This document shows positions 26,527 to 31,485 of a stretch of 58,065 nt of DNA, piece by piece; within the stretch, counting starts at the first letter, position 1, and every line of letters begins with the position of its first letter. This DNA is from Flavobacteriales bacterium. Lineage in GTDB: Bacteria; Bacteroidota; Bacteroidia; Flavobacteriales_D; Sanyastnellaceae. Below the pieces are notes generated by a model. The model made no database searches. It was not told the DNA's origin and saw only the letters and a list, made by a program, of their open reading frames with translations. Both the position numbers and the translations under genes were made by a program. The stretch is taken from assembly GCA_029238785.1 (NCBI GenBank), contig JAQWFN010000094.1:1-58065 (forward strand). Reading direction: 5' to 3'.

Positions 26527-27429
26527 TTGAAAGCCGAAAGCATCAATAACACCACTACCACATCGACCTCTTGGATTAAGGACCTAGGATTGTTCTTCAA
26601 ATTGAAACTCTCCGTAATTGTTGTCTTGTCCTCTGTTTTGGGCTATTTCATGGGCGCTGACACCATGGTTTGGTCGCAGTTTTTTGCCCTCATTGTTGGT
26701 GGATTATTGCTCACTGGAGCATCTAACGGATTTAACCAAGTCTGGGAGAGAGACATCGATAAGCTCATGACCAGAACTGCCAATAGACCGATGCCACAAG
26801 GGCGCATGTCTGTTGCGCAAGGAATCATCACCGCGAGTGTGGCTGGTATCTTGGGTATTTTTACACTTTGGTATTTTCTAAATGACATTGCGGGAATCCT
26901 TGGCTTAATGGCCCTGTTCTTTTACGTATTCATTTATACGCCGCTTAAAGCTAAAACGCCTCTTGCCGTATTTATTGGTGCTTTCCCTGGAGCCATTCCT
27001 CCCATGTTGGGCTATGTAGCAGCAACGGGTGATTTTGGAGTTGAACCTGGATCCTTATTTGCGGTGCAATTCATGTGGCAATTCCCTCATTTTTGGGCCA
27101 TTGCTTGGGTTGCTCACGACGATTACTTGAAAGCAGGGTACCGCCTTCTACCTTTCAGAGAAGGAAGATCGAAGCGAGCGGCTTTTCAAATTTTGATTTA
27201 CAGCTTATTCTTAATTCCGGTAAGTTTATTGCCTTGGGTCCTCCCTTTCGACTCACCTATGGTGGGCGATATTGCCATGGCAGTTACCTTGATCTGTGGA
27301 GTAGCATTTGCCTACCTCGCTTTCAAGCTCTACCGATCTTGCCAATTGAAAGATGCCAAAATCTTAATGTTTGCCTCTTTCATCTACCTTCCGATCGTTC
27401 AATTATTTTATGTCATTGATAAACTTTAA
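26527..27429 (+). CDS. cyoE: Protoheme IX farnesyltransferase (heme O synthase)
   Basis: 300 residues, TTG start. UbiA-type prenyltransferase with about nine membrane segments that attaches farnesyl to heme B for heme-copper oxidases. The first aspartate-rich motif is NGFNQVWERDIDKLMTRTANRPMPQG (N-x-x-x-D-x-x-x-D). The second is PHFWAIAWVAHDDYLKAGYRLLP. It heads the oxidase block and is followed seven bases later by subunit III. Confidence 0.96.
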   Translation: MKAESINNTTTTSTSWIKDLGLFFKLKLSVIVVLSSVLGYFMGADTMVWSQFFALIVGGLLLTGASNGFNQVWERDIDKLMTRTANRPMPQGRMSVAQGIITASVAGILGIFTLWYFLNDIAGILGLMALFFYVFIYTPLKAKTPLAVFIGAFPGAIPPMLGYVAATGDFGVEPGSLFAVQFMWQFPHFWAIAWVAHDDYLKAGYRLLPFREGRSKRAAFQILIYSLFLIPVSLLPWVLPFDSPMVGDIAMAVTLICGVAFAYLAFKLYRSCQLKDAKILMFASFIYLPIVQLFYVIDKL

Positions 27430-27435
27430 AAAAAA

Positions 27436-28221
27436 ATGGACGAAGCAGCTAAAGCATCAGCAGCAAAACAAGGCGTTTTCGACGAGCTTGACCCAGCGGT
27501 AAGGATAAGAACCAAGAAGATGATGATGTACTTCATCGTTTTTGCGATTGTTATGCTTTTCGCCGGATTAACAAGTGCTTACATCGTGAGTAACATGGGA
27601 GCTTATTGGGTCCACATCGCACCCAATTCAACCCTATGGATGAGCAATATTTTTCTTGCTTTGAGTAGTTTAAGCATCTTTATGGCTTACAAGCAAATGA
27701 AGGCTGGAAAAAAACAAGCAGCCTTAGGGTTGATGGGCCTTACTTTCCTTCTCGGTCTCGCTTTTACCGTGAGTCAAATTAGCGGTTGGAGTGCGCTAAG
27801 CGAAAAAGGAATGGGTTGGTCGATTACTGAAACCGATTTAGGTCCGGCCTATCGCTGGAACAACATTGAGCAAATCACAGGCGAATACGGGCTAGATTAC
27901 CACGTGGAAATCAACGGTGCGGTTCTCGATTTTCAAAACGGAGAATATTATTCACCTAGCGATCCATTGAAGGCTAATCCCATCACCAAGGAAGTGTATC
28001 GAAACACCAACAATTCTGGGGCTTATATTTGGGCCTTGTTGTGGGTGCACATTATTCACTTGGCTCTGGGATTGATCTACTTAGTGGTTAATATTATCCG
28101 AATTCAAAAAAATAAAATCAACGCTACAGACAACATCCAATTATATACAAATGGCATTTACTGGCATTTCCTTGGTATATTATGGATCTATTTGTTCGTG
28201 TTTTTGTTCTATATTCATTAA
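27436..28221 (+). CDS. Cytochrome c oxidase subunit III family protein (first copy)
   Basis: 261 residues with about five membrane segments. The heme-copper oxidase subunit III pattern is seen in FAGLTSAYIVSNMGAYWVHI, ISGWSALSEKG and the C-terminal YWHFLGILWIYLFVFLFYIH. Between segments three and four lies an extramembrane insert of about 60 residues (TETDLGPAYRW to EVYRNTNNSG). The terminal WHF-x-x-x-x-W-x-x-L-F matches subunit III. Subunits I and II are not in the window. Confidence 0.9.
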   Translation: MDEAAKASAAKQGVFDELDPAVRIRTKKMMMYFIVFAIVMLFAGLTSAYIVSNMGAYWVHIAPNSTLWMSNIFLALSSLSIFMAYKQMKAGKKQAALGLMGLTFLLGLAFTVSQISGWSALSEKGMGWSITETDLGPAYRWNNIEQITGEYGLDYHVEINGAVLDFQNGEYYSPSDPLKANPITKEVYRNTNNSGAYIWALLWVHIIHLALGLIYLVVNIIRIQKNKINATDNIQLYTNGIYWHFLGILWIYLFVFLFYIH

Positions 28222-28245: not shown

Positions 28246-29232
28246 ATGGCAAGCGAAGCAAGCAAAGCTATTTCAAAAGAAGAGTTGTGGGGCGGTGGAC
28301 GCTCCCCATTTTCCGTAAGCTACGGTAAAATGATGATGTGGTACTTCCTCGTTTCGGATGCACTCACATTCGGTGGATTACTCATAGCCTATGGCGTTGC
28401 GCGTCATAGTTCTGAGTTTGCTTGGCCAATTGGCGAGCAAGTATTCCAAGCTCTCCCGGGTCTTGAAGGACATTACCCATTGGCCTACGTGGCCCTGATG
28501 ACCTTTATCCTCATCGTTTCTTCTGTAACCATGGTACTCGCTGTTGAGGCTGGCCATCGTAACCACAAAAAAGACGTTGTGAAGTGGATGGGACTTACCG
28601 TTATTGGTGGTTTCTTCTTCGTTGCTTCGCAAGCCTGGGAATGGAGTCACTTCATCCACGGTGGCGGTGGTGCTTTCAAAATCACTCAAGGAATGACGGT
28701 TACGGGAACGCTTGCTGATGGTAATACCATGCAGTTCGACCTCAACACCGCAGACCGTGTTTACATGGATCATCATTTTGGAACTTTACTCGAAGAATAC
28801 CTTCATGGAGATCCTGAGGTGAGCATGGTAGAAAGCAACGGAACAGTTACCCTTTCTGGTCACGGACACACGGCTGTTTTGGAAGAAGTCATGGTGAACA
28901 AGTATGTTGAAGACGCTGCTACCGTTAGTGGTTCAGACATGATGAAATTGTGGAACGCCAAAGCTTCTAACGGCTTTGTGTTTGGTGCAAATATGAATGA
29001 AAACGAATACGGTGTGCAACAACAATATGCCAACTTCTTTTTCTTCATCACCGGATTCCACGGATTTCACGTTTTCTCTGGTGTAATCATTAACTTGATT
29101 GTTTTCATCATGGTGGTTCGAGGTGTTTTTGAGCGCCGTGGTCACTATGAAATGGTGGAGAAAGTTGGTTTGTACTGGCACTTCGTAGACCTTGTATGGG
29201 TCTTTGTTTTCACCTTCTTTTACCTCGTTTAA
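28246..29232 (+). CDS. Cytochrome c oxidase subunit III family protein (second copy)
   Basis: 328 residues, longer than the first copy. N-terminal segments include MMMWYFLVSDALTFGGLLIAYG and FVASQAWEWSHFIHGGGG. A soluble insert of about 110 residues follows (from KITQGMTVTGTL to VFGANMNENEYG) and contains HHFGTLLEEYLHGDPE. The protein closes with FFFITGFHGFHVFSGVIINL and YWHFVDLVWVFVFTFFYLV. Paired subunit III genes of unequal length are usual in flavobacteria. The insert probably faces the periplasm; role unknown. Confidence 0.9.
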   Translation: MASEASKAISKEELWGGGRSPFSVSYGKMMMWYFLVSDALTFGGLLIAYGVARHSSEFAWPIGEQVFQALPGLEGHYPLAYVALMTFILIVSSVTMVLAVEAGHRNHKKDVVKWMGLTVIGGFFFVASQAWEWSHFIHGGGGAFKITQGMTVTGTLADGNTMQFDLNTADRVYMDHHFGTLLEEYLHGDPEVSMVESNGTVTLSGHGHTAVLEEVMVNKYVEDAATVSGSDMMKLWNAKASNGFVFGANMNENEYGVQQQYANFFFFITGFHGFHVFSGVIINLIVFIMVVRGVFERRGHYEMVEKVGLYWHFVDLVWVFVFTFFYLV

Positions 29233-29256: not shown

Positions 29257-29634
29257 ATGGAAAGAGACGATCTTATTGTAAACGAATCATACGCTCTAAA
29301 CAACACCCATAACGACGAGGCGGGAAGAAAAATTCGTCGTAAAATTTGGGTAGTAACCGGAATATTAACCCTGATCACCATTGTTGAAGTAGCCCTTGGA
29401 ATTGCTGTGAAAAGAGCTGATTCTGGACTTTGGACTACCGTTAAACTCGGCTTTATCGTGCTGACTTTGGTGAAAGCTGGATACATCGTCATGTCATTCA
29501 TGCACCTAGGTGATGAGCGTAAGAACTTGAGAAATGTGGTGTTGATTCCTTATGCACTCTTTATTTTATACCTCATTTTCATCGCCCTCTCTGAAGGAAA
29601 TTCGCATTTGGACTTATTCGAAACATGGCACTAA
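29257..29634 (+). CDS. Cytochrome c oxidase subunit IV family (CyoD-like) protein
   Basis: 125 residues with three membrane segments: WVVTGILTLITIVEVALGIAV, VKLGFIVLTLVKAGYIVMSFMHL and VVLIPYALFILYLIFIALSEG. The FMHLGDERKNLR loop matches the prokaryotic subunit IV family, thought to stabilise the oxidase. It lies 24 bp after the second subunit III. Confidence 0.9.
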   Translation: MERDDLIVNESYALNNTHNDEAGRKIRRKIWVVTGILTLITIVEVALGIAVKRADSGLWTTVKLGFIVLTLVKAGYIVMSFMHLGDERKNLRNVVLIPYALFILYLIFIALSEGNSHLDLFETWH

Positions 29635-29638
29635 ACCC

Positions 29639-30316
29639 ATGAAAAATAACTCTATCAAAAAGTACATCTTCTTAATTGGTGTACTTTTTTTGTTTCCGCT
29701 CTCTTGGTTGCTCTTCTTCGGAGTAGCAGGTGAACACAATTTCAGCACCTTGCCCTACTATGGTTCTTACACTGTAGATGCAAATTCTGGAGACACCTTG
29801 TACAAAAAACTTCCAGAATTCAGCTTCATCAATCAAGATGGAATTGAATTTCATTCTGATTCCTTGAAAGGAAAAGTTTGGTTGGCTTCATTTTTCAGCA
29901 CAAACAACAAGTACATTGGAAAAATCACCAAGCGTTTGCTTTGGCCAAATTTCAGATATCGAAATGAAGAAGACATCTACCAGGTTTCTTTTTCTATGGA
30001 TACCGAATACGATACTCCTGAAGTGCTGAAAACCTACATCGATGATGCTACGAAGTACAACCAGTTTGAAGGGAAATGGCAATTTCTTACAGGAGATCAG
30101 GAAAAAATCCATGAACTTATTCGCTCAGGATTCGAACACCAAGATCTAGAGAACACTTCGGTGGTTTTTCTTGTTGATACGGAAGGATATGTTAGGGGGA
30201 GATATGAAGGTAACCGCGAAGATGAAATCAAGGATGCCATTGAAGATATCGCCCTTCTCAAGAAAGAAATTGATAAGAAAGAATATGATCGCAGAAAAGC
30301 TGCAGAACAAGATTAA
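29639..30316 (+). CDS. SCO-like protein without metal-binding residues
   Basis: 225 residues from ATG 29639, just after the subunit IV stop. One N-terminal membrane anchor (IFLIGVLFLFPLSWLLFFGV). The thioredoxin-like SCO fold is evident: KLPEFSFINQDGIEFHSDSLKGKVWLASFF, then STNNKYIGK where the CxxxC copper site should be. The distal histidine is also absent (LENTSVVFLVD). The protein contains no cysteine at all, so it cannot bind copper or do thiol exchange in the SCO manner. It shares the KFSFINQD-type motif with its neighbour and probably arose by duplication; its role may be structural or a partner of the intact SCO (inference). Confidence 0.82.
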   Translation: MKNNSIKKYIFLIGVLFLFPLSWLLFFGVAGEHNFSTLPYYGSYTVDANSGDTLYKKLPEFSFINQDGIEFHSDSLKGKVWLASFFSTNNKYIGKITKRLLWPNFRYRNEEDIYQVSFSMDTEYDTPEVLKTYIDDATKYNQFEGKWQFLTGDQEKIHELIRSGFEHQDLENTSVVFLVDTEGYVRGRYEGNREDEIKDAIEDIALLKKEIDKKEYDRRKAAEQD

Positions 30317-30941
30317 CATCTCCATCGTACTTTGCCTGTGCTTTGGATTGTTCGCGTGCACTGATTCTACAGAAATTAAAAAAGACCTTCCTTTTTTTGG
30401 TGAAGGAGGAATTCAAGATGGAGCAGCATTCACCGTTCCCAAGTTCAGCTTCATCAACCAAGACAGTGTAGAAACTTCTCATCGCGATTACCAAGGACAC
30501 GTTTACGTTACCGACTTCTTTTTCACCACGTGTCCGTCGATATGTCCCATCATGAGTTCTCAAATGAGCCGACTCCAGGGCCTACTTCAAAACAAAGAAC
30601 TTTGGGGCGAGGTGAAGCTACTTAGTCATACCGTAGACCCAGAGCACGATCGTCCATCAGTACTGAAAGCCTATGCTGAGCGACTTGGAGCAGATCTTGA
30701 ACATTGGAATTTTGTTTGGGGAAGCCAAGACGACCTGTACGATCAAGCCCGCTATGGTTATTTCATGACCGCTCTTGAGTCTGACACCGCCGCTGGAGGA
30801 TTTTTTCACTCAGATAATTTCGTCTTGATTGATCAAAACATGCACATCAGAGGTTATTATGATGGAACCTCGACAAAAGATGTAGACCAGCTTTTACTTG
30901 ATATTGAATACCTAGTTAAACACATACCTAATGAGCAATAG
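30285..30941 (+). CDS. SCO1/SenC-family copper chaperone lipoprotein
   Basis: 218 residues from ATG 30285, overlapping the previous gene by 32 bases. The lipobox LFAC25 predicts a lipoprotein. SCO hallmarks are intact: C83 and C87 in FFFTTCPSICPIMS and H175 in GGFFHSDNFVLID. SCO proteins deliver copper to the CuA site of cytochrome c oxidase subunit II. The KFSFINQDSVETSHRDYQG stretch parallels the neighbouring degenerate copy. Its end overlaps the DUF420 gene by 11 bases. Confidence 0.93.
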   Translation: MIAEKLQNKINISIVLCLCFGLFACTDSTEIKKDLPFFGEGGIQDGAAFTVPKFSFINQDSVETSHRDYQGHVYVTDFFFTTCPSICPIMSSQMSRLQGLLQNKELWGEVKLLSHTVDPEHDRPSVLKAYAERLGADLEHWNFVWGSQDDLYDQARYGYFMTALESDTAAGGFFHSDNFVLIDQNMHIRGYYDGTSTKDVDQLLLDIEYLVKHIPNEQ

Positions 30942-31485
30942 TATCCTTCTTAACGATAGCAAAGTAAAGCGCTTTGTAATTGTTGTGTCAGTGCTGATAC
31001 CAGCAGTAGTGACCCTTTTGTATTTCATCCCTCAACCAGAAAACTTGAGTGAAGAGACCAAACAACAACTCTACATTTTACCAAAGTTGAATGCCATTTT
31101 TAATGGAACGGCCTTTTTTGCTTTGATTGGTGCCCTGATTGCGATTAAGACTAAAAACATTCAATTACACAAAGCGCTTACTACTACAGCAATGGTATTA
31201 TCGGTGCTCTTTTTGGTGTCTTATGTGATTTTTCACCTCACCACGCCCAGCACATCATTTGGCGGTGAGGGAACAATTAAAGCCATTTATCTCTTTATTC
31301 TGCTAACCCATATCGCGCTAAGTGCGGTAATTGTTCCACTGGTTCTATTTACCTACATCTTTGGTTTGAGCATGCAAGTGGAACGTCACCGCAAGTGGGC
31401 AAAAATCACCTTCCCACTTTGGCTCTATGTGACTTTAACTGGACCAGTAGTTTATATGATGATTAGCGAATACTACCCTTACTAA
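30931..31485 (+). CDS. DUF420 membrane protein
   Basis: 184 residues with about five membrane segments. YILPKLNAIFNGTAFFALIGALIAIKTK, HKALTTTAMVLSVLFLVSYVIFH and HRKWAKITFPLWLYVTLTGPVVYMMI match the DUF420 family, regularly encoded beside SCO and oxidase genes in Bacteroidota. A role in oxidase maturation is inferred from that context. Several conserved histidines lie at membrane edges. Confidence 0.9.
   Translation: MSNSILLNDSKVKRFVIVVSVLIPAVVTLLYFIPQPENLSEETKQQLYILPKLNAIFNGTAFFALIGALIAIKTKNIQLHKALTTTAMVLSVLFLVSYVIFHLTTPSTSFGGEGTIKAIYLFILLTHIALSAVIVPLVLFTYIFGLSMQVERHRKWAKITFPLWLYVTLTGPVVYMMISEYYPY

Follow-up and report, generated by a model that had tools for sequence, protein, structure and literature searches.

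A metal-free Sco paralogue as candidate partner of an active Sco copper chaperone in an oxidase gene run of Flavobacteriales

Why should an oxidase gene run keep, directly in front of an intact Sco copper chaperone, a second Sco-fold protein that carries none of the copper ligands? The question is raised by a 58,065-nucleotide stretch of DNA (contig JAQWFN010000094.1), analysed as a whole and referred to here as the window, from a group of marine Flavobacteriales. On its forward strand the gene order is cyoE, COX3, COX3, COX4, SCO-A, SCO-B, DUF420. The run opens with a cyoE/ctaB heme O synthase (26527–27429; TIGR01473 above cut-off) and two COX3 genes (27436–28221 and 28246–29232; PF00510 in each case), and continues with prokaryotic oxidase subunit IV (29257–29634; PF03626), SCO-A (29639–30316; 225 residues), SCO-B (30285–30941; 218 residues) and a DUF420, or CtaM-type, oxidase assembly protein (30931–31485; PF04238, 1.7e-42). 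The reading frames of the two SCO genes overlap by 32 bases (30285–30316), and in 25 of the 32 tandems in the window's family the nearest ATG of SCO-B overlaps the end of SCO-A. Our names SCO-A and SCO-B are unrelated to ScoA and ScoB of Paracoccus denitrificans.

SCO-B is a canonical Sco copper chaperone, matching the Pfam SCO1-SenC family (2e-24, 86.5 bits) and carrying C83-P-S-I-C87 (30531–30545) and H175 (codon 30807–30809). A likely lipobox, L-F-A-C25 (30348–30359), was picked up by a regular-expression screen, which is an untrained predictor. SCO-A contains no cysteine, and its match to PF02630 (SCO1-SenC; 4.3e-10, 40.1 bits, cut-off 22.8) places it in the same superfamily. In a BLASTP alignment the two proteins are 25% identical over 216 columns, with N90 and G94 of SCO-A opposite C83 and C87; this alignment and the family comparison locate the vestigial CxxxC site at N90-K-Y-I-G94 (29906–29920). 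SCO-A thus falls outside the definition of a Sco copper chaperone both at the CxxxC motif (N90 and G94; cysteine in 0 of 64 family copies) and at the distal copper-ligand histidine of the Sco loop, where the window copy has asparagine. AlphaFold2 nevertheless predicts a Sco-type (thioredoxin-like) fold with a pLDDT of 93.4 and a pTM of 0.83, and in a search of the PDB the structures closest to this model were Sco proteins (4hde, Foldseek E 2.9e-14). An N-terminal membrane helix at residues 3–30 (29645–29728) was located by AlphaFold2 and a hydrophobicity screen, so that by prediction SCO-A has the single N-terminal anchor of the SCO1/SenC superfamily. The domain ends in a long C-terminal helix, residues 194–224 (30218–30310), which in fused relatives is the helix that runs towards SCO-B. 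The preliminary description of this locus had reported the 32-base overlap, the setting in an oxidase gene run, the complete site of the second protein and, in the first, the absence of cysteine and of the histidine together with a retained fold and anchor. Translation reproduced the overlap and the residues, the pair does lie between subunit IV and DUF420/ctaM, and fold and anchor agree with the Pfam match and with the predicted structure.

SCO matches in the window's genome number three altogether. The third (L245:112-777, reverse strand, on contig C3 of the same genome) has C-V-T-L-C and a histidine, lies outside the oxidase gene run and adjoins an amidohydrolase-like frame, named by eye; relatives, too, have further SCO genes outside the run.

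Searched with P0001, the 70 genomes of the window's family, its own included, show SCO-A in 66. The relevant stretch is missing from the assemblies of the other four: in G017 the contig ends 291 bases from the DUF420 gene and does not extend to the SCO genes, and in G029, G036 and G190 (83–92% complete) no DUF420 was found, which places the whole stretch outside the assembly. The counted set comprises 64 of the 66 genomes. G168, which stands outside it, has a fused SCO-A (430 aa) with no cysteine at the A site, and G164 is counted from a fragment that ends short of the site. Both site cysteines are gone in all 64 counted copies, one of which comes from a single-contig genome of 4.1 Mb (G013). 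The copper-histidine column holds asparagine in 52 of the 64 and histidine in six, where the context is different and the site cysteines are absent; judged from that context, the aligned histidine is an alignment coincidence. Only 12 of the 64 copies, counted from the first methionine of the open frame, are wholly without cysteine as in the window, so what the family shares is loss of the site and not the absence of all cysteines. Gene position is also regular: at 61 of the 64 loci the one or two SCO genes are flanked by cox4 and DUF420, neither more than 300 bases away, and the remaining three loci are cut by a contig end. A further 49 loci from another collection, mostly titled uncultured Flavobacteriales, overlap with this set and were kept out of the counts.

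Several loci merit separate mention. In genus g20 (L032, L033, L099 and L100, from G020, G035, G121 and G159) SCO-A carries C-D-[TA]-G-C shortly past the membrane helix; this pair, far from the old site, could be a newly gained disulfide or metal site. The titles of L135, L164 and L180 (Chryseobacterium gleum, Euryarchaeota archaeon) clash with sequences that carry the family's gene run, and these metagenome bins are probably misnamed. A SCO frame is broken in the assemblies behind L035 (G034), L060 (G049), L195 (G117) and L205 (G061), likely through sequencing or assembly error.

We then consider whether the metal-free copy is maintained. Of 135 within-genus pairs, all but 15 were left aside here as saturated; in the 15, dN/dS was 0.03–0.16 for SCO-A and 0–0.21 for SCO-B, the pairs not being independent and mostly having dS near saturation. 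SCO-A was the more conserved of the two proteins in 106 of the 135 (non-independent) pairs. Between the window and its nearest relative SCO-A is 90% identical with a dN/dS of 0.042, and SCO-B 73% identical with a dN/dS of 0.082, at a dS above 2 in both comparisons. As judged by these substitution patterns, SCO-A is under purifying selection. Among the best-conserved parts of the family's SCO-A are H33, F35, L38 and Y40 near the membrane and E202–K209 in the C-terminal helix, joined in a profile of 64 copies by most of T97–R108 (TKRLLWPNFRYR; 29927–29962), immediately past the lost site; T97, L101 and N104 show no variation across 31 aligned copies. These juxtamembrane, T97–R108 and E202–K209 segments may together form a re-used contact surface. 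A replacement metal site at the old position is not supported, because residues 87, 89, 90, 94 and 95 are poorly conserved in the family while T97–R108 behind them is mostly strongly conserved; copper might still bind at some other place in the protein. The preliminary description had named three things that would undo its reading, namely rarity of the cysteine-less form, relaxed selection and a sequencing error at the CxxxC site. The form is not rare in the family, selection on SCO-A is not relaxed, and loss of the site in every counted copy rules the error out. That SCO-A might be a duplicate in decay, or an artefact of assembly, as the missing catalytic residues could suggest, is rejected by the same survey (66 of 70 genomes, low dN/dS, invariant residues), and we give the idea next to no credence.

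Outside the family the first copy is less reduced. In families f3 and f9–f13 the two cysteines are kept in 60 of 62 SCO-A copies of at least 150 aa, and the copper histidine in none of the 62 (another residue in 60, a gap in two). Three residues separate the cysteines in 28 of the 30 copies from f9 and in each of the eight from f10, f11 and f13 that have both. In f3 the pair has 3 to 7 residues between its members, an unusually plastic site (L057, L058, L060, L184-L187, L190, L195-L200, L202-L204, L207-L211). The two copies without both cysteines are those of G055 (f10) and G047 (f12); G047 is a long branch that adjoins the window's family in the concatenated tree, which, if the tree is right, means at least two losses of the cysteines. 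SCO-B has cysteine, cysteine and histidine, with three residues between the cysteines, in all 135 copies counted in the order. Families f2 and f4–f8 have one SCO between cox4 and DUF420 at 15 of 15 loci. For the class, 119 genomes were searched and the 27 best-scoring loci read, a selection that is not random; each has one SCO, with both cysteines and the histidine in 26, and both flanking genes are nearby in 21 of the 27. At L130, from G300 in a different family of the class, the sole SCO seen at the oxidase locus is without the first cysteine and the histidine (E-N-K-S-I-C), apparently a separate degenerate case. In f9, SCO-A and SCO-B are about 0.7 kb apart at L242 (G116) and about 1.2 kb apart at L241 (G130), so something lies between them. 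The site counts leave out SCO-A below 150 aa (G061, G130), SCO-B below 165 aa, the class rows and G191, in which no SCO-B was found inside the stretch fetched. G191, with an A-like frame, and G129, whose locus is cut by a contig end, were classed as single. We dropped L001, L003 (the window), L104-L106 and L183 as repeats and set apart L002 (the third SCO of the window's genome), L053, L056 and L063-L073 (SCO genes outside the oxidase run) and L212, a SCO lying outside the operon in G083, the tandem of that genome being beyond the data.

Membrane attachment and metal site are divided between the two copies. The hydrophobicity screen found an N-terminal hydrophobic helix in 127 of 128 SCO-A proteins, the exception being a 102-aa fragment. 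Of 86 tandem SCO-B proteins, 73 showed a lipobox-like signal in a simple screen, which found neither lipobox nor transmembrane helix in any of the 33 fused SCO-B domains screened. The single SCOs of f2 and f4–f8 have a transmembrane helix and no lipobox (15 of 15). A juxtamembrane H-x-[FY] motif is shared by 63 of 64 family SCO-A copies and 14 of 15 of these single SCOs, as against 11 of 124 tandem or fused SCO-B copies, of which the fused no longer have this part of the protein. The simplest account would be that SCO-A retained the anchor and SCO-B the chemistry. Beyond the family the motif is sparse (3 of 64 SCO-A copies, 13 of 27 class SCOs), so that it is the helix itself that argues there for SCO-A having kept the ancestral anchor. 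In the trees, SCO-B from the tandem families clusters together, separate from the single SCOs (SH-aLRT 98 and 97). In free trees the family's SCO-A copies are not joined with the other SCO-A copies; a tree that constrains all of them together is better by 22.6 lnL units (p-AU 0.872), which allows one duplication, and a single origin of all SCO-A copies by one duplication is mildly favoured on these trees.

The two proteins are also found as one. SCO-A and SCO-B form a single open frame in 29 of the 64 family genomes, where one frame is truncated at 375 aa by the contig, and also in five genomes of f3; among 32 f9 genomes read there was no fusion. The fused frames, about 400–470 aa long, encode the membrane helix, then the metal-free domain, then the active domain. 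The 34 fused proteins include G181, which is cut by a contig end, and the alignment covers 31 of the 34. On a concatenated A+B tree the fused and separate states require four changes, two within each family, so that the fusions of the window's family and of f3 are separate; the tree is blind to direction and treats fusion and splitting alike. An AlphaFold2 model of the G010 fusion has a pLDDT of 92.4 and a pTM of 0.69, with a helix at 198–230 closing the A domain. At that pTM, and with no inter-domain error to hand, the model shows no A–B interface. The fusions imply that SCO-A and SCO-B would work in proximity.

On balance we think it probable, by a little, that SCO-A and SCO-B make up a two-part copper chaperone for the oxidase, in which SCO-A is the partner that carries no metal. 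One membrane-anchored Sco would have been duplicated within Flavobacteriales. The first copy, A, would have kept the membrane helix and the fold and lost the copper histidine in the sampled lineages, and in the window's family both cysteines as well; the second, B, would have retained the copper site and, in most cases, acquired a lipoprotein-like signal. The two may then act as one unit: A would tether B to the membrane and offer it to a client, the most probable one being the CuA domain in subunit II of the oxidase, and the copper chemistry would remain with B. That the proteins touch when encoded by separate genes, that they contact subunit II and that CuA loading benefits are parts of this picture that we infer. 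A possible client is encoded in the genome, where the CoxB and CoxA genes lie on a different contig behind a cluster that we take, from its gene order, to be ACIII. CoxB is a good match to COX2_TM (48.9 bits) and a borderline one to COX2 (20.7–22 bits, cut-off 22); it carries C-N-K-V-C-G-S-A-H-F-N-M, a spacing that presumably fits a CuA site. The preliminary description had suggested a structural or regulatory role for SCO-A, for example as a partner that would dock the active SCO on subunit II; of this, the idea of a partner has gained strong support from the A+B fusions in two families and from the division of anchor and metal site. At the level of sequence the partnership is well supported. 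A bolder version, in which the pair is an obligate two-domain copper chaperone of Flavobacteriales, with a dead Sco domain serving as docking and anchoring module for the live one and fused to it separately in two families, seems to us a serious but tentative proposal, with somewhat under an even chance of being right.

Other roles for SCO-A can be set against this. It could reside as an accessory subunit in the oxidase, or in an ACIII–oxidase supercomplex, with no partnership with SCO-B. The gene stands directly behind that of subunit IV, its product has one predicted membrane helix, and on the other contig the ACIII-like cluster is followed by coxB and coxA. That two families have SCO-A fused to a copper chaperone is more in keeping with an assembly factor, and we regard the subunit role as unlikely; the absence of 'Sco' from the main text of one Flavobacterium johnsoniae ACIII-aa3 paper says little. 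The two cysteines of 60 of the 62 SCO-A copies outside the family, with histidine in none, are what might be expected had SCO-A begun as a thiol-disulfide partner that reduced SCO-B or CoxB, much as human SCO2 is an oxidoreductase for SCO1 (PMC3971200); in the window's family the chemistry would have moved elsewhere and left a structural function. A cysteine spacing that varies from 3 to 7 in f3 is unlike a fixed redox motif, and constraint is undiminished in the family although both cysteines are gone from every counted copy, which makes such an origin distinctly improbable. SCO-A could also help to defend the cell against oxidative stress, independently of the oxidase, a role that has been proposed for HCC2 of plants. 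A yeast sco2 sod1 mutant exposed to oxidative stress is rescued by HCC2 despite its lack of the motif (PMC6307045), and oxidase activity does not require HCC2 (PMC6696091). SCO-A, by contrast, is strictly placed inside the cox gene run and fused to a copper chaperone, and we consider a stress role very improbable.

How does the proposed SCO-A/SCO-B partnership compare with known systems? In canonical Sco proteins the copper ligands are the CxxxC cysteines and a distal histidine (PMC6696091), and SCO-A has none of the three, even though its model superposes on 4hde of B. anthracis with a Z of 20.9 (rmsd 2.1 over 158 residues) and on YpmQ/BsSco of B. subtilis (1xzo) with a Z of 19.7. P. denitrificans resembles the window in having two Sco paralogues for one oxidase (PMC9145763); there the functions of ScoA and ScoB seem to overlap, whereas one member of our pair is without the metal site. 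The gene after SCO-B belongs to the family of CtaM/YozB, CtaM being a DUF420 protein that the aa3 and caa3 oxidases of B. subtilis need (PMC9145763); unlike SCO-A it is a multi-helix membrane protein without a Sco fold. The main text of that bacterial review gave no match for Bacteroid- or Flavobacteri-, and among the matches listed from the open-licence PMC literature, which leaves most subscription journals outside, we recognised no description of a cysteine-less or fused SCO from Bacteroidota. A 2019 review calls it 'very surprising' that Sco proteins without the copper residues complement other Sco proteins, and describes the function as open (PMC6696091). The present case adds a metal-free Sco from bacteria, with many sequences, a traceable duplication history and a pathway named by the gene run, in which natural fusions link the copy without metal to the active copy. 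The role of the copper-free Sco fold thereby becomes testable in bacteria.

The closest known counterpart is plant HCC2 (Arabidopsis At4g39740), likewise a membrane-anchored Sco fold without CxxxC and histidine beside an active paralogue, HCC1 (PMC3971200, PMC6307045, PMC6696091). As with HCC2, the copper motif is missing from SCO-A while the paralogue in the same genome keeps it. Motif-less HCC2 occurs in other higher plants too (PMC3971200). It is described as interacting with the metallochaperone module, its function is called open, and knock-outs show that it is not essential for oxidase activity (PMC6696091). It differs from SCO-A in being a plant mitochondrial protein outside any operon, with no fusion mentioned in the passages cited, and from the window copy in having other cysteines (PMC6307045). 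Given the spread that we see, the resemblance is likely convergent. If the obligate two-domain reading is true, the SCO-A/SCO-B pair would be a bacterial parallel to HCC2/HCC1, and the Sco fold would have a metal-independent function in CuA assembly, separable from its copper chemistry.
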